A stretch of DNA of 64,000 nucleotides from Aggregicoccus sp. 17bor-14. GTDB taxonomy: Bacteria > Myxococcota > Myxococcia > Myxococcales > Myxococcaceae. Under the pieces are notes generated by a model. It did no database searches, was not told where the DNA came from, and saw only the letters and a program-made list of their open reading frames with translations. A program made the translations under genes and the position numbers. The first letter of the stretch is position 1. Each line of letters opens with the position of its first letter. Positions 6,216 through 57,575 of this stretch are shown here, one piece after another. Location of the stretch: NCBI RefSeq assembly GCF_009659535.1, contig NZ_VJZZ01000013.1, forward strand, positions 1 through 64,000, in the 5' to 3' direction.

Positions 6216-7942
6216 CGCAGCGAGACCTCCACCCAGCCGCGCACGCCATTGATGAACCACAGGCGCTGGGCGCGTCCGAGGTCCTCGCGGGTGAGGACCT
6301 GCTCTTCGATTTCGCCGCGGGAGAGGAGCTCCTCGCGCAGCGTGCCCGCGAGCAGGCCGCAGTCTCGCGGCGGCGTGAGCTTGCGGCCGTCTGGCAGCTC
6401 CAGCACGAGGTTGCCCGTGGTCAGCTCCGTCAGCTCGCCCTCCTCGTTCCAGAGCAGCACGTCGAAGGCCTCGGGGTGCTCGGCCTTGTGGCGTGTGTAG
6501 ACCTCGCGGTGCGTCGTCTTGTGGAAGAGGAAGCGGTCGTGGCGGCTCACCGGTGCGCGCGCGAGCGCGATGGGGAGCGGGCCCGGGGGGAGCTCGGTGA
6601 GCGGCGTGGCTTCGGTGCGAACCTCGCCCTGCTGCGAGACGAGGAGGCGCACGCGCTTCGGTAATCCCTCACCCTTTCCCTCTCCGAGGGGGAGAGGGAA
6701 CAGTGCGGACTCCACCTGCTCCCTCGTGAGCGGGATGCCGAAGTAGCGGGCGCTCGCGAGGACCCGCTCCACGTGGCGCTCGCGCAGCACGTACTCGCCG
6801 TTCCTCAGCGCGAGCGTCTCCAGCAGCTCGAACGCGGGCCAGCGCTCGCTCAGCACCCGCGCCTTCGCCAGCGCCTCCGCGTGCTCGTCCGCCGCGGTGC
6901 TGTCCCAGGTGATGCCGCCGCCCGTCCCGTACTCCGCCCACCCGCTCGCCGCGTCCTGCCACAGCGTGCGGATCGCCACGCTGAAGGTCGCGTCCCCTCC
7001 CGGCCGCACCAGCCCGATGGCGCCGCAGTACACCTCGCGCGGCCGCCCCTCGAGCCGCGAGATGAGCCGCATCGTGCTCACCTTCGGCGCGCCCGTGATG
7101 GACCCGCAGGGAAAGAGCGCCCCGAACACCTGCTCCAGCGTAGTGCCCGGCCGCGCGCGCGCCTCCACCGTGCTCGTGAGCTGCAATACCGTGGGGTAGC
7201 GCTCCACCTCGAAGAGCCGCGTCGCCTGCACGCTGCCCACCTGCGCCACGCGGCCCAGGTCGTTGCGCAGCAGGTCCACGATCATCACGTTCTCGGCCCG
7301 GTTCTTCTCCGAGGCCTGCAGCCACGCGGCCCGCGCGTCGTCCTCCTCCGCCCAGCGCCCGCGCGGCAGCGTGCCCTTCATCGGCCTCGTGACGAGCCGC
7401 TCCCCGCTGCGCTCGAAGAACAGCTCCGGGCTCGCGGACACCAGCCGGTGTGCCCCCAGGTCCAGGTACGCGCAGTAGCGCGCGCGCTGCGCCGCCCGCA
7501 GCGCCTCGTAGGCCGCGAGCGGGTCCCCCGTGAGCCGCGCGCGCAGCCGCAGCGTGTAGTTGAGCTGGTAGGTCTCGCCCGCGGCGATCGCCTCGCGGAT
7601 GGCGTCGATGCCCGCGCGGTACGCCTCGCGCGTGACGCTGGGCTCCCACGCGCCGAACTGCGAGGGCCCTGCGGGCGCCGGCGCCGGCACGGGCGCGCGG
7701 AAGAGCCCGAACCAGGCGAGCGGCAGCACGTGGCCCTCGCGCACCTGCAGCGCCGGGTCGAAGGCGGGCGCCGCCTCGTAGGACACGTAGCCTGCGGCCC
7801 AGAGCCCCGCGGCCGCCGCGCGCTCCACCTCGCGCAGCACCCCGCGCACGTCCTCGAGCCGCTCGGCCACCAGCACCCGCTCGGGGTGCGCGAAGGCGAG
7901 CCGCTCGGGCGGGAAGTCGAAGAGGAGCAGGGGCGGCGACAT
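6212..7942 (-). CDS. pabB: Fused aminodeoxychorismate synthase component I / aminodeoxychorismate lyase
   Basis: The 576-residue protein joins PabB (about residues 1-355) to PabC (about 360-576), the two steps that make 4-aminobenzoate for folate from chorismate (with a PabA glutaminase encoded elsewhere). PabB marks include GTLPRG, ENVMIVDLLRNDLGR, and CGSITGAPKVSTMRLI. The PabC part shows HKTTHREVYTRH, NEEGELTELTTGN and GLLAGTLREELL, typical of PLP fold-type IV enzymes. The ATG at 7942 is chosen over a GTG at 7957, which would overlap the upstream gene. A copy of the genome's short palindromic repeat lies in frame at 6666-6698 and encodes PLPLGEGKGEG near residues 415-426, in a loop of the lyase half. 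It is last in a four-gene minus-strand run. Confidence 0.92.
   Translation of the reverse strand: MSPPLLLFDFPPERLAFAHPERVLVAERLEDVRGVLREVERAAAAGLWAAGYVSYEAAPAFDPALQVREGHVLPLAWFGLFRAPVPAPAPAGPSQFGAWEPSVTREAYRAGIDAIREAIAAGETYQLNYTLRLRARLTGDPLAAYEALRAAQRARYCAYLDLGAHRLVSASPELFFERSGERLVTRPMKGTLPRGRWAEEDDARAAWLQASEKNRAENVMIVDLLRNDLGRVAQVGSVQATRLFEVERYPTVLQLTSTVEARARPGTTLEQVFGALFPCGSITGAPKVSTMRLISRLEGRPREVYCGAIGLVRPGGDATFSVAIRTLWQDAASGWAEYGTGGGITWDSTAADEHAEALAKARVLSERWPAFELLETLALRNGEYVLRERHVERVLASARYFGIPLTREQVESALFPLPLGEGKGEGLPKRVRLLVSQQGEVRTEATPLTELPPGPLPIALARAPVSRHDRFLFHKTTHREVYTRHKAEHPEAFDVLLWNEEGELTELTTGNLVLELPDGRKLTPPRDCGLLAGTLREELLSRGEIEEQVLTREDLGRAQRLWFINGVRGWVEVSLR
6666..6698. repeat. Short palindromic repeat, copy 1 (inside pabBC)
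   Basis: The core reads CCCTCACCCT, a pyrimidine run, then GGGGGAGAGGG and folds back on itself (CCCTCTCC against GGAGAGGG). The same repeat is found at 14365, 24136, 26040, 29727 and 32921. This copy lies inside the pabB-pabC fusion and is translated in frame. Short dispersed repeats encoding PLPLGEG-type peptides are known from many proteobacterial genomes. Confidence 0.85.
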
Positions 7943-16877: not shown

Positions 16878-17252
16878 GGCTCGATGGCAAGCCGGGACGG
16901 GACGGGCTCCTGTCGCTTCTGCCGAGCGCGCCCGGGCGTTGCCCTGCGCATCGCTCCGGGGAGGCGCGAGTGAGGAGAGGGGTGTCGGGCCGAGTGCTGT
17001 GCGGAGCTAAAGACAAACCTCGGGAGTTTTCGAAAGTCCCGAGGTTTGTCGTTAGCAGCGCACCGACCTGCGCCCGCTGAACCCGCACGCGCGTGCTTTT
17101 TCGGCGACCGGAGCGCAGACCTCGAGACGTCGCGCGGCTCCTGTCGGAACTGGGTCCACACCCGAGCCTCCCTGGAGCGCCGCGCAGGCGGACGCCCCCT
17201 CGCGCTGGGCGGAGGCGACGGACACCGGCCCATCCCTCGTCCTCCCGGAGCG
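16878..17252. mobile_element. Composite inverted-repeat element A (no cargo)
   Basis: The element is about 375 bp. Its left arm (about 16878-16962) and right arm (about 17168-17252) are imperfect inverted copies of each other, about 83 bp each. Inside lie a near-perfect palindrome of about 50 bp (17007-17056, arms GCTAAAGACAAACCTCGGGA-type), a conserved GCACCGACCTGCGCCCG block, and a perfect GCACGCGCGTGC palindrome at 17085-17096. It shares arms and internal blocks with 35271-36316 and 57211-57575. No transposase is inside. Most of the 679-bp gene-free gap between cysE and the STAS-like gene is this element. Confidence 0.75.
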
Positions 17253-17878: not shown

Positions 17879-17882
17879 AGCG

Positions 17883-18422
17883 CTACCAGCGCACCTGGAT
17901 GACGCAGTGGTCGTAGCTGCGCTCGAGCACCGTGGCCTGCGGCTTCACGTTCGCGCGCGAGAGCCCGGCCTCGAGGATGCCCGAGCAGAAGTCCGGCAGC
18001 ACCCCGGCCTGCTGCAGCGTCACCTGCCACAGCCCGTCACCCACCTTGCGCGTCTCGGCCCGCAGCGTGGGCTGCGCCGCGCTCCACGTGCGCGCGAGCC
18101 GCTCCAGCGTCTTGTCCGGCCCCAGCAGCGGCACGCCCACCGCCACCAGCTTGCCCACGAGCGTGTCGAAGAAGCCCGCGATGAAGCGATCGCCGAGCAG
18201 CCGGTAGCCCTGCTCCTCCGGCAGGTGCGGCGCCACGTGCCGCAGCGCCACCCGCATCGCGGCGTACCAGACGGGCAGCGGGTAGGTGGCCTCGAGGCGC
18301 TTCACGTCCACGCCCACCTGGCGCAGCTCCTCCTCGAAGGCGCCCGTGGGCTTGAGGGCCCGGACGTAGAGGCCCTCCACGGCGCTGCCCTGGATGAAGG
18401 CTTTGGGATCCGACGTACTCAT
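17883..18422 (-). CDS. DUF2378 (TIGR02265) myxobacterial family protein, copy 1
   Basis: The protein has 179 residues. It shares with the next gene upstream the pattern [73 protein letters not shown] and a C-terminal [11 protein letters not shown]2378 proteins occur as large paralogous sets in myxobacteria and have no established biochemical role; a fold related to heme-NO-binding (HNOB)-like domains has been suggested for relatives, which I cannot confirm. It is last in a run with its paralogue, an SDR and an acyltransferase. Confidence 0.85.
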   Translation of the reverse strand: MSTSDPKAFIQGSAVEGLYVRALKPTGAFEEELRQVGVDVKRLEATYPLPVWYAAMRVALRHVAPHLPEEQGYRLLGDRFIAGFFDTLVGKLVAVGVPLLGPDKTLERLARTWSAAQPTLRAETRKVGDGLWQVTLQQAGVLPDFCSGILEAGLSRANVKPQATVLERSYDHCVIQVRW

Positions 18423-18515
18423 GCGGCGCCCTGTACCAGTGCGCCCGGCTCCTGGCGAGCCCTCCCCTCCACGCGCGCCCGCACCTCGTACGACCAGGCA
18501 GGGCCGGCGTGTGCG

Positions 18516-19067
18516 CTACCAGCGCACCTGGATCACGCAGTGCTCCGGGCTCTTCTCGCTCACCACCACCTGGGGCTTCACCCCGGTGCGCCCGAGGCCG
18601 CCCTGGAAGATGCCCGCGCAGAAGTCCGCGATGATGCCCGGCTCGCGCAGCGTGATGCGCCAGTGCTGCGCCGCCTCCTGCACCGTCTCCACCTTGAGGG
18701 TGGGCTGCGCCGCGGCCCAGGTGCGCGCGAGGCGCTGCAGGGTGCGATCCGGCCCCACCAGCGGCAGCCCCACCGCCACGAGCCTGCCCACCAGCGTGTC
18801 GAAGAAGCCGCCGATGAACTTCTGGCCCAGCAGCTGGTAGCCCGCCGCCTCGGAGAGGCCGGGCGCCACGTGCCGCCGCGCCACCGCGAGCGCCGCCTGC
18901 CACACCTGCGTGGAGTAGGTGGGCTCCAGGCGCTTTACGTCCACGCCCACCTTTCGCAGCTCGTCCGCGAAGGCGCCGGTGGGCTGAAGTGCGCGGACGA
19001 ACATGCCCTCGACCACGCTGCCCTGGGTGATGGAGGTGTCGGTGAGCGGCGGGGAGGAGGTGCTCAT
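18516..19067 (-). CDS. DUF2378 (TIGR02265) myxobacterial family protein, copy 2
   Basis: The protein has 183 residues and is a tandem paralogue of the gene at 17883-18422, colinear along its length ([65 protein letters not shown]). The 3' ends of both genes also match at DNA level, indicating a fairly recent or gene-converted duplication. Ninety-three bases separate them. Function unknown. Confidence 0.85.
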
Positions 19068-24045: not shown

Positions 24046-24135
24046 CGCCGGTCCGCCACACGCCTCGCGGTGCACGTCGCGGGGCGCGTGCATCGCGACT
24101 TAACGCGGCTCAGGCGGACCGTGACGGACTTCTAT

Positions 24136-24169
24136 CCCTCACCCCGACCCTCTCCCCGAGGGAGAGGGG
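24136..24169. repeat. Short palindromic repeat, copy 3
   Basis: CCCTCACCCCGACCC, TCTCCCC and GAGGGAGAGGGG form the palindrome. It is in the intergenic region between 24045 and 24285. Confidence 0.85.
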
Positions 24170-24284
24170 ACGGATTCGCTCACTGCGTCCCAGTCTTTGA
24201 GAGAGCGCGGGCACAGTTCAGCGGTGGGCAACCCTGGCCCACGGGTCCATGCCCGTGTGAGGCGGAGGTGCTACCCCGCGCCAG

Positions 24285-26015: not shown

Positions 26016-26039
26016 CGGGACACCGTGGGGCGGGCCTGT

Positions 26040-26074
26040 CCCTCACCCTTTCCCTCTCCCAGGGGGAGAGGGGA
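26040..26074. repeat. Short palindromic repeat, copy 4
   Basis: The core CCCTCACCC, CCCTCTCCC and GGGGGAGAGGGG is followed by CCTTCACGCGGCTTCGC, an extension that also follows copy 5 at 29727. The two copies flank the peroxiredoxin-kinase pair. Confidence 0.85.
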
Positions 26075-26109
26075 CCTTCACGCGGCTTCGCTCGGCGCCC
26101 TCGGCTCGT

Positions 26110-29561: not shown

Positions 29562-29726
29562 GAGGAGCGCGGGCAGCCGGACGGCGGTCCCTCCCTATGG
29601 CACAGCGGAAGTCACGGGAGGCGCAGGGGTGCGGCCCGTGTCGGGCGGGAGACGTCCTCTAGCGCCGCGGTGCGGGACGCGCCCGGAGGGCCCGGCCGGT
29701 TGCTCGGGGGCACGGCGGGGGGTCAT

Positions 29727-29761
29727 CCCTCACCCCGACCCTCTCCCAGGGGGAGAGGGGA
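29727..29761. repeat. Short palindromic repeat, copy 5
   Basis: CCCTCACCCCGACC, CTCTCCC and GGGGGAGAGGGG, followed by the same CCTTCACGCGGCTTCGC extension as copy 4. It occupies the intergenic region between the kinase start and the mvaS stop. Confidence 0.85.
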
Positions 29762-29797
29762 CCTTCACGCGGCTTCGCCCAGCGCCCGCCGCCTCCC

Positions 29798-32178: not shown

Positions 32179-32973
32179 TCAGCCGCCGACGAGCGCGTCG
32201 CGCAGGCGCAGCGGGTCGAGCGCGCGGATGGCGGCGAGCGTCGCCGCGTCCGGCAGGGGCGTCTCGGGCAGCAGCTCCGGCACGCCGAAGGGGAAGCCCG
32301 TGCGCTGCACGATGCTCTCGAGCTGCACCTCCGGATGGCGCGTGAGCAGGCGCGCTCCGAGCGGGCCTCCGATGCTCCAGGTGCCGAGGTCCGTGACGAG
32401 CCGCGCCTCGCGCGCGGGGTCTCGGGTCGTGGCCACCTGCACGCGCGCCACCAGGTTGCGCTTCGACTGGCGCGGCACCACCAGCACCGGGCGGTTCACC
32501 CACTGGCGCAGCGTGGCGGCGCCCGCGACGCCCGGGAACTTCGTGCGCACCGCGGAGAGGCTCCCGCTCGCGCTCATGTTCGTCTGGCCCTCGGCGTCCA
32601 CCTCCGCGGCGCCGAAGAAGACCGTGTCCACCCGGCCGCGGCGCGCGTGGTCGAAGAGCTCCGGGATGCTCACCTCCGCCGAGCGGCCGTCGAGGTACGC
32701 GAGGTCCTCCGACGAGGGCAGCAGCCGCGGCAGCTCCGGGTCGAGTGAGCCCACGCACGCGAGGTAGGTGAGGCGCGGCGCGTGCGTCGCCCGGGCCACG
32801 GCGATGGCCAGGATGGCGAGGGGCGAGGCGACGCCGGTGGCGACGACCGCGCCGTCCTCGATCTCGCGCGCGAGCACGGAGACGAGGAGCTCGGCGGGGG
32901 ACACGGGCTCGAGCCCACTTCCCTCACCCTGACCCTCTCCCAGAGGGAGAGGGGACGTCGACGCGGTGTTCAT
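32179..32973 (-). CDS. aibB: AibB subunit of 3-methylglutaconyl-CoA decarboxylase, with repeat-encoded N-terminal insert
   Basis: The protein has 264 residues and is a CoA-transferase beta-subunit-like chain that pairs with AibA to decarboxylate methylglutaconyl-CoA. LTYLACVGSLDPEL includes Cys73; as I recall, Aib decarboxylases use a cysteine where glutaconate CoA-transferases have the catalytic glutamate. The N-terminus is odd: residues 8-18 (PLPLGEGQGEG) are translated from a palindromic repeat at 32921-32955, lengthening the chain by roughly 15-20 residues relative to where the conserved fold begins (SPAELLVSVLAREIEDG). The start ATG overlaps the aibA stop, which favours this start despite the insert. 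Confidence 0.88.
   Translation of the reverse strand: MNTASTSPLPLGEGQGEGSGLEPVSPAELLVSVLAREIEDGAVVATGVASPLAILAIAVARATHAPRLTYLACVGSLDPELPRLLPSSEDLAYLDGRSAEVSIPELFDHARRGRVDTVFFGAAEVDAEGQTNMSASGSLSAVRTKFPGVAGAATLRQWVNRPVLVVPRQSKRNLVARVQVATTRDPAREARLVTDLGTWSIGGPLGARLLTRHPEVQLESIVQRTGFPFGVPELLPETPLPDAATLAAIRALDPLRLRDALVGG
32921..32955. repeat. Short palindromic repeat, copy 6 (inside aibB)
   Basis: CCCTCACCCTGACC, CTCTCCC and AGAGGGAGAGGGG. It is located within the first 20 codons of aibB and is in frame. Confidence 0.85.
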
Positions 32974-33770
32974 GCGGCCCTCCGGTGCGCAGTGAGCTCG
33001 GCGAGCGCCTCGGCGACCTCGCCGGCCTCCGCCCGTGCGAGGTAGCGCGCGAGCGCGGCGTCGTCGTGCGGGTAGAGCCCCGCGCAGCCCGTGGGCAGTG
33101 CGCCCCCGGGCGCGAGCGCCACCTGCTCCACCTGGAAGGAGGGCAGCGTCACGCGCGGCAGCCGCTCCACCCGCTCCTCCACCGTCGCGAGCACCCGCTT
33201 CGCCGCGCCCGCCATGAGCAGGTCGGTGGTCGGGTCCTCGATGTAGAGGTTGCCGCGCGCATCCGCCGCGCGCGCGTGCACCAGCGCCACGTCCGGGCTG
33301 AACGCGAGCTCCACCGGCACACGCTCCCCGCTCACCGGGTGGTCCACGCTGAAGGGCGGGTCCTGCTCGGAGAGCTGCGACACGTCCGCGCCCGGCGCCG
33401 GCAGGAAGGGCAGCCCCATGGCGGCCGCGCGCAGCCGCTGCACCACGCGGTAGCCGTCGTGCTCGGCCCACTCCACGCTGCCGCGCTCCAGCGCCCGCTT
33501 CAGCGCCGGCATGCTGCGCACCCGCCCCTCGAGCGTCAGCGCCCCGAACGCGAGCTCCACCCGCGCGAGGCACCCGCCCGCCACCAGCAGCTCCGCGGGC
33601 AGCGGGTTGGGCAGGGACAGGAGCCGCAGCCCGCGCCGCCCCTGCGCCACCAGCTCGAGCACCGCACGGATGGGCGCGCGCCCCAGCATGAAGCCGCCCG
33701 TCGCGAGCGACGCACCGTCCGGCACGCTCGCCGCCAGCTCCGCCACGCTCACCCAGCGCGTGAGCCTCAC
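32970..33770 (-). CDS. aibA: AibA subunit of 3-methylglutaconyl-CoA decarboxylase
   Basis: The protein has 266 residues and is a CoA-transferase alpha-subunit-like chain. VPDGASLATGGFMLGRAPIRAVLEL is the N-terminal nucleotide-fold start with the SxGG-like loop, and LVHARAADARGNLYIEDPTTDLLMAGAAKRV is the conserved C-terminal core segment of family I CoA-transferases. It forms a complex with AibB. The ATG overlaps the aibR stop by four bases and the gene overlaps aibB by four bases, a tightly coupled order. Confidence 0.88.
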   Translation of the reverse strand: MRLTRWVSVAELAASVPDGASLATGGFMLGRAPIRAVLELVAQGRRGLRLLSLPNPLPAELLVAGGCLARVELAFGALTLEGRVRSMPALKRALERGSVEWAEHDGYRVVQRLRAAAMGLPFLPAPGADVSQLSEQDPPFSVDHPVSGERVPVELAFSPDVALVHARAADARGNLYIEDPTTDLLMAGAAKRVLATVEERVERLPRVTLPSFQVEQVALAPGGALPTGCAGLYPHDDAALARYLARAEAGEVAEALAELTAHRRAA

Positions 33771-35270: not shown

Positions 35271-36316
35271 GCTCCTGGGGAAGACGGACGGGACGGGCTC
35301 CCGTCGCATGCGCCCAGCACCCCGGGGCGCTGCCCTGCGCGGCGCTCCGGGGATGCGACAGAGAGGGGGTGTCGGGCCGAGTGCTGTGCGACGCTAAATA
35401 CAAACCTCGGGAGTTTTCAAAACCCCCGAGGTTTGTCGTTAGCTCCGCACCGACCTGCGACCGGGAGGGTGCCCCCCTTCCCCTCCGCCGGCCGTGGACG
35501 AAGTGTTCCGTCCAGCGCTCACGGGACCGACTGTCCCGTCGTCACGTCGAAGCGGTGGACGCGCTCTCGATGCCACGGCAGTCCATCGAGAGTCACGACG
35601 GTGTACCGCCCCTCTGCGTCGATGCCCTCGCAGCGCCCCCAGCACCAGTGGGAGACGGTGGGCAGGAGCAGCCAGAAGTGCTCGACCAGCTCGTCGAGCC
35701 GAACGGCGCGAATCAGCCTTCCGCGCTCGAAGAACCGGAGCATCGTTTCTGCACGGTCGTAGTCGCGCGGCAGCAGGTCCTGGCCATCGAAGCCGACGAC
35801 CAGGTGGTCCCCGTCGTCCGAGAGCGATGCCTCGCGGAACCAGCCCGGCATCTCCCAGGAGAAGCGCTCCGACCCATCGGATGCCACGCGCACCACGGTG
35901 GTGCGCCAGGCCTTCGGATCCGTCCGCGCGCAGAAGCGGCCGCTGCGTGAGCAGACCCGCCGTGCACTGGGTGGTGGCAGAGGCTCGTCGGCACGCGAGG
36001 ATCCGGTGGCAAGGAGGGCTCCGATGAGGGCGAGGCCCAGGAAGCGAGCGGCAGGAAGGCCCGGCGAGAGGTGCATGAGGTGCAGAACGCAGGAGGGCGC
36101 GCGGAGGTCTACGCCTCATCTCCCGGGACCTGCGGGCGGGCGGCACTTCCACGGACGAGAATGGCGGTTCTACTCGGCCGCTCCTGCCTCCGCCGAACCC
36201 GCACGCGCGTGCACTTCGACGAAGCCCTGAGCCTCCCCGGAACGCCGCGCAGGCCGGCGCCCCCTCGCGCTCGGCGCAAGCGAAAGGAGGCCGTCCCACC
36301 CGTCTTCCTCCGAGCC
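35271..36316. mobile_element. Composite inverted-repeat element B with cargo gene
   Basis: The element is about 1,046 bp. The left arm (about 35271-35355) and right arm (about 36232-36316) are imperfect inverted copies (about 83 bp). Next to the left arm are the conserved GTGTCGGGCCGAGTGCTGTG block, a palindrome of about 50 bp at 35393-35443 and GCACCGACCTGCG; next to the right arm is a perfect GCACGCGCGTGC palindrome (36201-36212). The middle holds a minus-strand gene (35519-36076). The cargo-free relatives A and C are about 370 bp long. It accounts for the long gaps on either side of the cargo gene. Confidence 0.75.
35519..36076 (-). CDS. Exported protein inside inverted-repeat element B
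   Basis: The protein has 185 residues with a signal peptide (LGLALIGALLATGSSRADE). The mature part repeats a short strand pattern with WHRERVHRFDVTTGQSV, LVVGFDGQDLLPRDYD and WCWGRCEGIDAEGRYTVV, which looks like partial beta-propeller blades. I do not recognise the family. Third positions carry more A/T than the neighbouring genes by eye. It lies between the two inverted arms of a repeat element that elsewhere in the window has no gene. Confidence 0.55.
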   Translation of the reverse strand: MHLSPGLPAARFLGLALIGALLATGSSRADEPLPPPSARRVCSRSGRFCARTDPKAWRTTVVRVASDGSERFSWEMPGWFREASLSDDGDHLVVGFDGQDLLPRDYDRAETMLRFFERGRLIRAVRLDELVEHFWLLLPTVSHWCWGRCEGIDAEGRYTVVTLDGLPWHRERVHRFDVTTGQSVP

Positions 36317-38701: not shown

Positions 38702-39619
38702 ATGTTCTCCTCTCGACGGATCTCGTTCCACCGCCTCACCCTCCCCACCCTGCTCGCGCTGCTCTTCGCCGCGGGCGCGGCGCACGCCCAGGCCTCCCGC
38801 ACGTGGGTGTCCGGGGTGGGCGACGACGTGAACCCCTGCAGCCGCACCGCGCCCTGCAAGACCTTCGCGGGGGCGATCAGCAAGACGGCTGCCGGCGGGG
38901 AGATCGACGCGCTGGACCCGGGCGGCTTCGGCGCCGTCACCGTGACCAAGTCGATCACGATCGACGGCGCGGGGATGGGCAGCATCCTCGCCAGCGGCAC
39001 CATCGGCGTGGTGATCAACGCGCCGGGCGCCACGGTCATCCTGCGCAACCTGAGCATCAATGGCGCGGGCAGCACCGTCGGCACCCACGGCATCCGGGTG
39101 ATCGCGGCCGCGGCGGTCTACGTGGAGAACTGCACCCTCTTCGGCTTCAGTGGCAACCTGGTGTGGGTGGCGGCGCCGGCGGCGACCCAGGTCTTCGTGC
39201 GCAACAGCACGCTCAACGGCGACTGGAGCTCGGGCACGGCGAGCGGTAACGCGGCGAGCGCGCTGCGCATGGAGGGCGGCGCGGCGGTGGTGGAGAAGAG
39301 CCAGCTCGCGCGCGCGACCGTGGGCGTCTCGGCGCAGAACGACGCGAAGGTGGCGCTGCACGACTCCACGCTGGTGGGCCACGTGACGGCCGGGGTGCTC
39401 GCGCAGGGCAGCAGCCAGGTGCTGCTGGAGCGCGGCATGGTGGCGCAGAGTGGCACCGGCGTGCAGGCGGACGCGCCCGCGCAGGTGCGCCTGAGCGACG
39501 TGATGGTGGGCCAGAACACGCAGGGCCTCACGGGCAACGTGGCCTCCTTCGGCAACAACCGCGTGGCGGCCGGCAACGGCACCGACGGCGCCCCCTCCAC
39601 CCAGCTGCCCCAGAACTAG
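38702..39619 (+). CDS. Secreted right-handed beta-helix protein, copy 1
   Basis: The protein has 305 residues with a signal peptide (LTLPTLLALLFAAGAAHA). It begins with RTWVSGVGDDVNPCSRTAPC, a disulfide-bearing start shared with the next gene, then runs through repeating strand turns (VTVTKSITIDGAG, VILRNLSINGAGS, VYVENCTLFGF, VFVRNSTLNGD) of a pectate-lyase-like parallel beta-helix. No catalytic residues are identified, so it may be structural or carbohydrate-binding. It precedes its paralogue by five bases, forming a pair. Confidence 0.78.
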   Translation: MFSSRRISFHRLTLPTLLALLFAAGAAHAQASRTWVSGVGDDVNPCSRTAPCKTFAGAISKTAAGGEIDALDPGGFGAVTVTKSITIDGAGMGSILASGTIGVVINAPGATVILRNLSINGAGSTVGTHGIRVIAAAAVYVENCTLFGFSGNLVWVAAPAATQVFVRNSTLNGDWSSGTASGNAASALRMEGGAAVVEKSQLARATVGVSAQNDAKVALHDSTLVGHVTAGVLAQGSSQVLLERGMVAQSGTGVQADAPAQVRLSDVMVGQNTQGLTGNVASFGNNRVAAGNGTDGAPSTQLPQN

Positions 39620-39623
39620 ACCC

Positions 39624-41756
39624 ATGGCGTCCCCGGCGTTCCCACTTCGTCTTGCCCTCGCGGCCGCGCTGCTGTGCGCCGCCTCGCCCGCGTTCGCCCA
39701 GGCCACCCGCACGTGGGTGTCCGGCGTCGGCGACGACGTGAACCCCTGCAGCCGCACCGCACCCTGCCGCACCTTCGCCGGCGCCCTGCCCAAGACGGCC
39801 TCCGGCGGGGAGATCGACGCGCTGGACGCGGGCGACTTCGGCCCCGTCACCGTCACCCGCAGCGTCACCCTGGACGGGCGCGGCGTGGGCCGCGTGCTCG
39901 CCGAGGACGCGCACGCCGTGGTGGTGAACGCGCCGGGCGCCACCGTGGTGCTGCGCAACCTCTCGCTGCAGGGCGCGCGCAGCGGTTTGGACGGCCTGCG
40001 CGTACTCGCCGCGAGGAGCGTGCGCGTGGAGGACAGCCGCGTCTCCGGCTTCACCGGGGACGGGCTGCGCTTCACGCCGGACGCGGGCGGGCAGCTGCTG
40101 CTGCGCAACGTGAGCAGCGCGGACAACGCGGGCGCGGGCCTGCGCGTGGGCAGCCTCTCGGGCAGCGCGGTGGCCTTCCTCGAGCGCGCGAGCCTGCAGC
40201 GCGGCAGCCAGGGCCTCGTGGTGGAGGCGGGCGGGCGCGCCACCGCGTACGACGTGACGGCCTCCGGCAACGCGGGCGCGGGCCTGGGGGTGCGCGCCTC
40301 GGGTGCGGGCGCGAGCGCGGAGCTCAACGTGGAGCGCGCGCAGCTGAGCCACAACGCCCTCGCCCTGGAGGCCGTGGGCCTGCGGGGTGCGAGCGCGCAG
40401 GTGCGGCTCTCGCGCGCCACCGCGCTCGGCAGCAGCCTTGCTCCGACGCGCCTCGCGGGTGAGGGCAGCCTCGGCAGCTACGGCAACAACCGCCTGGACG
40501 GCCTGGGCGCGGCCGCATGCACGCTCGAGCCCGCGGCGCTCGCCCCGGCCGCGCTGGAGACGGCGTACGGCCCCGTGGAGCTCGCGCTGCGCGGCGGGCT
40601 GGGCCGCGCGCAGCTCAGCCTCACCGGCGCGCTGCCGCGCGGCATGCAGGCCTCGGGCGGCGTGCTCGAGGGTACGCCCACCGAGGGCGGCGACTTCCCC
40701 CTCACCCTCACCGGCACGGACGACAACGGCTGCAGCGTGCAGCGGAGCCTGGTGCTCAGCGTGCCCTGCCCCGCCACCTCGGTGGACCCGGACAGCGTGC
40801 CGGGCGCCACCGCGGGCGAGCCCTACGAGGGCCCCCTCTTCAGCCACACGGGCGCCCAGGCCCCCAGCACACTGCAGCTGATGGGCACGCTGCCCATCGG
40901 GCTCGGGCTGGTGGACGGGCGGCTGAAGGGCCTGCCCACCCAGCCGGGCACCTTCCTCTTCCGCGTGGGCGCCACGGATGCGCACCGCTGCGCGGCGGAG
41001 CGCAGCTACACGCTCGAGGTGGTGCGCCCCGCGGACTACCAGGACACCACCGCGCAGCTCTCCGCCACGCCGAGCCCGGCCGCGTACGGGCAGAGCCTCA
41101 CCCTCACCGCGCGGCTCGCGGTGGCGAGCGGCGAGCCCACCGGCAGCGTGGCCTTCTTCGCGACGCAGGGCGCGGGCCCCGAGCGTGCGCTGGGTGTGGC
41201 GCCCGTGAGCGCGCGCGGGGCGAGCCTCGTGGCGCCCTCCCTCGAGCCGGGCGCCTACAGCCTGCGCGCGGTGTACTCGGGGGACGCGCACTTCAGCGGC
41301 GCGGAGGCCCCTGCGCTCGCGCTGAAGGTGTCGCCTGCGCAGACGCAGACCGCGCTCGCCTCGGCGGGCCCGGTGGACCTGGACACCCCGGCGCGCCTCA
41401 GCGCCACCGTGACCTCGAGCGGGGCCGCGGGCACCCCCACGGGCCTCGTCACCTTCCGCGAGGGCGAGCGCGTGCTGGGCAGCGCCGCACTGGATGCGGC
41501 GGGCGTGGCCACGCTGGAGGCGAGCCTGCTCGGCGCGGGCACCCACTCGCTCGTGGCCGCCTACGCGGGCGCGGAGCGCTACCTGCCCAGCACCTCCGCG
41601 CCGCTCGCGCAGGAGGTGCGCAGCGCGCGGGTGGAGGCGCAGGGCTGCGGCTGCAGCGAGGCGAGCGCTCCGGGACTCGCCTCGCCGCTGCTCCTGCTCG
41701 CGCTGCGGGCGCTGCGGCGCCGGCGCCGCACGGAGGGCGGCGAGCGCGCGCCGTAG
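39624..41756 (+). CDS. Secreted beta-helix and Ig-like repeat protein with MYXO-CTERM-like tail
   Basis: The protein has 710 residues with a signal peptide. The first 290 residues are a beta-helix paralogous to the preceding gene (same RTWVSGVGDDVNPCSRTAPC start). Two putative Ig-like units of the He_PIG type follow (SLTGALPRGMQASGGVLEGT, LMGTLPIGLGLVDGRLKGL), then two bacterial Ig-like units (for example GTPTGLVTFREGERVLG). The end, GCGCSEASAPGLASPLLLLA plus an Arg run, is a MYXO-CTERM-like sorting signal: cysteine motif, hydrophobic helix, basic tail, expected to be cleaved by myxosortase for surface display. It is therefore probably cell-surface anchored while copy 1 is released. Confidence 0.82.
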   Translation: MASPAFPLRLALAAALLCAASPAFAQATRTWVSGVGDDVNPCSRTAPCRTFAGALPKTASGGEIDALDAGDFGPVTVTRSVTLDGRGVGRVLAEDAHAVVVNAPGATVVLRNLSLQGARSGLDGLRVLAARSVRVEDSRVSGFTGDGLRFTPDAGGQLLLRNVSSADNAGAGLRVGSLSGSAVAFLERASLQRGSQGLVVEAGGRATAYDVTASGNAGAGLGVRASGAGASAELNVERAQLSHNALALEAVGLRGASAQVRLSRATALGSSLAPTRLAGEGSLGSYGNNRLDGLGAAACTLEPAALAPAALETAYGPVELALRGGLGRAQLSLTGALPRGMQASGGVLEGTPTEGGDFPLTLTGTDDNGCSVQRSLVLSVPCPATSVDPDSVPGATAGEPYEGPLFSHTGAQAPSTLQLMGTLPIGLGLVDGRLKGLPTQPGTFLFRVGATDAHRCAAERSYTLEVVRPADYQDTTAQLSATPSPAAYGQSLTLTARLAVASGEPTGSVAFFATQGAGPERALGVAPVSARGASLVAPSLEPGAYSLRAVYSGDAHFSGAEAPALALKVSPAQTQTALASAGPVDLDTPARLSATVTSSGAAGTPTGLVTFREGERVLGSAALDAAGVATLEASLLGAGTHSLVAAYAGAERYLPSTSAPLAQEVRSARVEAQGCGCSEASAPGLASPLLLLALRALRRRRRTEGGERAP

Positions 41757-57210: not shown

Positions 57211-57575
57211 GGCTCTATGGGAAGCCGGGACGGGACGGGCTCCCGTCGCATGCGCCGAGCGCGGGCGGGCGCTGCCCTGCGAGGCGCTCCGGGGAAGCTC
57301 GGGAGATTTCAAAACCCCCGAGGTTTGTAGACAGCACCGCACCGACCTGCGCCCGGGAGGGGTACCCCCGGGGCGCGAAGTCGCGCGCACCTGTTCTGAG
57401 ATGTCGGGGGTATTGCGGTAGTCCTTACAGGCCCCGCGGCCTCGCCTCCTGGGGGGCCGCACCAGGATGGAAGCGGGCCCGCTCCCGAGCCTCCCTGGAG
57501 CGCTGCGCAGGCCGACGCCCGCGCGCGCTGGACATCCACGAGGCGAGCCCGTCCCGCCCGTCCTCATCCCGAGCC
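57211..57575. mobile_element. Composite inverted-repeat element C (no cargo)
   Basis: The element is about 365 bp. The left arm (about 57211-57294) and right arm (about 57491-57575) are imperfect inverted copies. Compared with A and B it has lost about 60 bp after the left arm, removing one side of the internal palindrome, but AAAACCCCCGAGGTTTGT and GCACCGACCTGCGCCCG remain. It lies in the gene-free region 57071-57599. Confidence 0.7.

Follow-up and report, generated by a model that had tools for sequence, protein, structure and literature searches.

Copy B, a repeat of 1,046 bp at 35271-36316 with inverted arms of ~96 nt at both ends, is probably a member of a dispersed family of intergenic, non-autonomous mosaic repeats, one into which foreign DNA entered on a single occasion. 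It lies in the window, the whole stretch of 64,000 nucleotides analysed here, and its arms and its m1 and m5 blocks are those of an ordinary repeat, while DNA of foreign appearance lies in the interior. The repeat family, seen in one genome only, is apparently undescribed in the literature searched, and its copies seem to have grown both through uptake of foreign DNA and as targets of insertion sequences (ISs). The coordinates of the features and the modules of the family are collected in Table 1.

Table 1. Features of copy B, copies without cargo and the palindromic modules of the family (positions in the window).
Feature	Position	Strand	Basis
Copy A, without cargo	16878..17251	+	Comparison of copies; arm model
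Copy C, without cargo	57211..57575	+	Comparison of copies; arm model
Copy B, left inverted arm	35271..35366	+	Arm model match 35273-35363, E 1.9e-17; alignment of 53 arms
Copy B, module m1 and flanks, imperfect hairpin ACAAACCTCGGGAG...CCCGAGGTTTGT	35367..35463	+	91% identical to copy A 16979-17076; pair counts
Copy B, module m3, 20-nt palindrome TGGACGAAGTGTTCCGTCCA, IS landing site, unoccupied	35495..35514		Own-genome pattern scan; IS junctions in other copies
Copy B, orphan 185-aa ORF with signal-peptide-like N-terminus	35519..36076	-	ORF reading; codon periodicity; codon score; no relatives
Copy B, 622-bp interior found in this copy only	35534..36155		All-against-all comparison of copies
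Copy B, right internal block with module m5 (GAACCCGCACGCGCGTGCACTTCG)	36156..36224	+	87% identical to another copy, C6:8509-8577
Copy B, right inverted arm	36221..36316	-	Arm model match 36225-36313, E 1.7e-17
Module m1, hairpin around ACAAACCTCGGGAG...CCCGAGGTTTGT			
Module m2, CCTGTTCTGAGATGTCGGGGGTTTT			
Module m3, TGGACGGAACACTTCGTCCA			
Module m4, CTGGAATGAAGCTTCATTCCAG			
Module m5, CCGAACCCGCACGCGCGTGCACTTCGG			

The repeat family in the host genome

A sequence model built from the alignment of 53 arms matched about 65 credible arms in the 6.9-Mb myxobacterial genome (best E 9e-21), far beyond chance. The genome holds at least 27 copies of the repeat, 23 with two arms and four interrupted by an IS. 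The arms of the 23 two-armed copies face inward and, by the arm model across the whole genome, these copies span 274-1,041 bp, copy B being the largest; no other arrangement was seen among neighbouring arms within 5 kb. Eight further arms near contig ends make up the four copies split by the IS, and the arms beyond these and the 23 pairs are unpaired. The conserved core of the arm reads GCCnAGCnCG...GGGC...CTGCG...CGCTCCGGGG in the 53-arm alignment.

The interiors are mosaics of common short palindromes, whose combinations differ from copy to copy. In most copies the common modules cover the interior wholly, and a few copies contain unique non-coding stretches of ~90-180 bp; a gene-sized unique interior, 622 bp long, was found in copy B only (1 of the 23 two-armed copies). 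Every m2 site falls at a repeat copy, as does almost every m3 site, one m3 (C6:242079) lying without a nearby arm. All 21 copies tested are intergenic, with coding-like sequence amounting to 0.2% inside vs 82% in the flanks, a test that includes copy B, whose ORF falls below the host-codon threshold used. The module m4 may also occur outside these repeats; an m4-like palindrome (CTGGAAGGAAGCTTCATTCCAG) is located at the 3' end of L171 (contig C28).

The sequence-only reading had suggested searching other genomes for the same arms around different genes. Among 95 other genomes of the taxonomic family, none of the same genus, no paired arms were found, and the only arm-like matches were single ones in two relatives (L172 4966-5034 and L077 1501-1571), with no partner arm detected. 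A blastn search with the left half gave only two short matches in the relatives searched, and a scan of genome_contigs for a pattern shared by 29 of the 53 arms came back empty. Two relatives each contain a single complete m2-like palindrome (L177 near 1500-1555 and L178 near 1470-1525), and m2 may therefore derive from a wider hairpin family.

Identity is as low between the paired arms within a copy as between arms of different copies (0.633 vs 0.644), so the copies are probably old relics, whose target-site duplications may have decayed. No such duplication was detectable: the longest word shared by the two flanks averages 4.29 vs a null of 4.57 from unrelated copies. No transposase tied to the arms was found, the IS in the four interrupted copies being unreadable, and no parent autonomous transposon with matching ends appeared among the arm matches, ten small contigs (C29-C38) that may contain the IS reading as N.

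The insertion sequence in module m3

Eight contig ends (5' of L096, L071, L072, L113, L065, and L048; 3' of L064 and L068) break shortly inside one IS, always within module m3. The ends of the IS, which read CTCAAGATCCAACACATC... and ...CATGTGATCAATCTTGAG, are located exactly inside m3. The duplicated bases at the junctions are GAACACTT (two left ends, two right ends), GAACGTTT (one of each), and GAACATTT (one of each); the left and right duplications match, so that there are four insertions, each with a duplication of 8-10 bp, a length that is ambiguous by sequence. With four IS copies in the m3 palindrome accompanied by such duplications, the repeats are therefore IS landing sites. The readable part of the IS is a 38-aa C-terminus that matches NCBIfam transpos_IS4_3 with E 0.083, aligned at the end of the model, which weakly suggests an IS4-like element. 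Such landing has a precedent in ISRm22 of the IS4 family, which targets the axis of REP palindromes in Sinorhizobium meliloti (PMC1525189). Here, too, an apparently IS4-type element inserts in a repeated palindrome, but the target is m3 within a larger mosaic and the duplication is 8-10 bp instead of the 6 bp of ISRm22.

Copy B, its open reading frame and the empty site

The sequence-only reading described copy B as about 1,046 bp against about 370 bp for copies A and C, with arms and internal blocks preserved on each side of a minus-strand gene that accounts for essentially all of the difference. Our comparison agrees on each of these points: copies A and C measure ~374 bp and ~365 bp, the usual arms, m1, and m5 are present in copy B, and its extra length is, in the all-against-all comparison of copies, a single 622-bp stretch containing most of the 185-aa ORF. 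Compared as inverted repeats, the two arms of copy B share 81% identity over 78 nt. An arrangement like that of copies L045 and L050, with an m3 site on each side of the cargo, was rejected, as the second m3, right of the ORF, was not significant, and a 9-nt match between short repeats flanking the cargo, considered as a footprint, was within chance.

The N-terminus of the ORF, MHLSPGLPAARFLGLALIGALLATGSSRA followed by DE, fits the signal peptide that had been proposed for it, as judged by eye, and the greater use of A/T at third positions was confirmed, with a GC3 of 0.83 vs 0.93-0.99 in genes nearby. The codon comparison of cargo with host, also suggested at that stage, gave an un-hostlike score of -0.08 vs +0.46/+0.51 in the neighbours. 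The codon periodicity is 0.286 vs a null of 0.057 +/- 0.031, and strong three-base periodicity in the frame of the ORF spans 35540-35880. The length of the frame is unremarkable at this GC content, as 23.5% of shuffles reach 184 codons; no ribosome-binding site was seen by eye upstream of the ATG, and a structure model of the protein has a mean pLDDT of 52. The ORF may be a working gene, of a probably secreted protein, the periodicity speaking for coding and the unremarkable frame length and the codons against it.

No relatives of the cargo were found in 194 other genomes of the phylum, in plasmids or viral contigs, or in genome_contigs, which reaches close relatives only, and the protein has no match by sequence in Pfam, NCBIfam, or PDB. 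Weak matches in G016 and G097 were attributed to chance and not to homology. From its codon usage and its absence from relatives, we infer a foreign origin of the cargo.

Copy B is flanked on the left by the gene of a LysE-type exporter and on the right by that of a regulator read as HTH/WYL-type, whose orthologs in three relatives (G027, G032, and G016) are 64-67% and 74-76% identical, respectively. In these relatives the two genes are divergent and form one adjoining pair, separated by 122 bp in G027, 100 bp in G032, and 99 bp in G016 vs 1,248 bp here, with both the gene and the arms absent between them. Judged from this spacing, the repeat together with its gene is a derived insertion, and vertical inheritance at the locus, which would have contradicted the sequence-only reading, was not seen. 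Outside copy B, 119 bp and 83 bp of spacer remain, lengths consistent with the ancestral spacer. For the cargo-less copies C and L046, no empty sites were shown, their neighbours not being conserved together.

Alternative explanations and classification

The proposal that the gene is cargo between two half-elements is upheld insofar as a normal repeat encloses foreign-looking DNA that is absent in three relatives; independent half-elements are disfavoured. Two halves landing separately on either side of a resident gene would explain why the cargo sits exactly between the left and right halves, but these complement each other to make a single normal copy, with its parts in the usual order, both gene and arms are absent from the locus in the three relatives, and elsewhere neighbouring arms occur in no arrangement other than a single inward-facing pair, so that such an origin is scarcely credible. 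The further proposal, that these elements capture and move genes, fared poorly: one of the 23 two-armed copies has a gene-sized interior, no target-site duplication was detected, the arms are ~64% identical, no paired arms were found in the other genomes searched, no arm transposase was found, and the cargo has no relatives in the collections searched. We regard as quite improbable a transposase-less myxobacterial repeat family whose arms pick up and relocate genes, with copy B as a caught example and the palindromic interior as a dedicated landing pad of an IS4-like element. Were the gene-moving reading true, it would represent a new transposase-less gene vehicle in myxobacteria. It is unlikely, too, that copy B is a mobile insertion cassette (MIC) or resembles TIME-based composites, a trans-acting transposase having mobilised all 1,046 bp and the gene having travelled as passenger; complete arms around repeat and gene, the absence of the entire unit at the empty site, and the un-hostlike codons would fit, whereas the case is a single instance at one locus, with strongly diverged arms, no detected duplication of the target, and no copy carrying a different gene.

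That the ORF is not a working gene, the insert being DNA of foreign origin or in decay whose open frame is a relic or arose by chance, would accord with the proportion of shuffles reaching its length, the lack of relatives, a codon score far under that of host genes, and the missing ribosome-binding site, but the strong periodicity in its frame and the signal-peptide-like N-terminus make this rather unlikely. A functional structured RNA or DNA element with an incidental ORF is highly improbable: in the m1 hairpin, 87% of cells are paired with some two-sided changes, but a long-hairpin function of the arms was rejected, as covariation appeared neither inside single arms nor between paired ones, Rfam gave no match, and the interiors vary freely. 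An arm core lacking covariation looks more like a protein-binding or end sequence than an RNA fold.

We therefore return to the mosaic repeat that gained foreign DNA once. Its two inverted arms, conserved in sequence, flank short palindromic modules that vary from copy to copy. In the mechanism we propose, the family would have spread long ago via a trans-acting protein for which the arms were the substrate, and recombination and insertion would have reshuffled the interiors. Copy B would then have taken in one 0.6-kb foreign piece carrying an orphan, probably secreted, protein gene, which settled in the tolerant non-coding interior, so that the repeat would be a safe landing site and not a regular gene vehicle. 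The repeat could have come first and the gene later; both could also have arrived jointly.

The family is best described as BIME/MITE-like, strictly neither, because tests for an REP-type arm hairpin and for a target-site duplication were both negative. Similar to BIMEs (bacterial interspersed mosaic elements) and REPs, which are species-restricted, lie between genes, combine palindromic modules and inverted units into mosaics, and serve as IS targets (PMC1525189), the repeat is an intergenic mosaic of several palindromic motifs; however, its arms of ~96 nt exceed the 20-40 nt of those elements, its modules differ, and its arms show no covarying REP-type hairpin, the palindromes being the internal modules. 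MITEs are short, non-autonomous, intergenic elements with terminal inverted repeats, their arms measuring 4-30 bp (review PMC10969869). The present repeat shares these features, with 23 inward-facing arm pairs, but its arms are far longer and it is not AT-rich, and neither a target-site duplication nor a parent transposon was detected. TIME-based mosaic transposons carry a gene between inverted ends while their own transposase is absent (PMC4133298). Copy B likewise has a passenger gene between inverted ends without a transposase, but it differs from MICs and TIME mosaics in showing no mobility, second cargo, or second locus, its one locus having no detectable duplication.

A second repeat family (TCCCTCACCCCGACCCTCTCCCAGGGGGAGAGGG) is present in the window at 6665-6731, 24135-24201, 26039-26105, 29726-29792, and 32920-32986; it also occurs upstream of several copies of the mosaic repeat, and a related stretch adjoins their left arm. 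The window further contains two tandem pairs of similar gene segments, 17880-18179 with 18513-18812 (74% DNA identity) and 38755-38947 with 39665-39857 (84% DNA identity).
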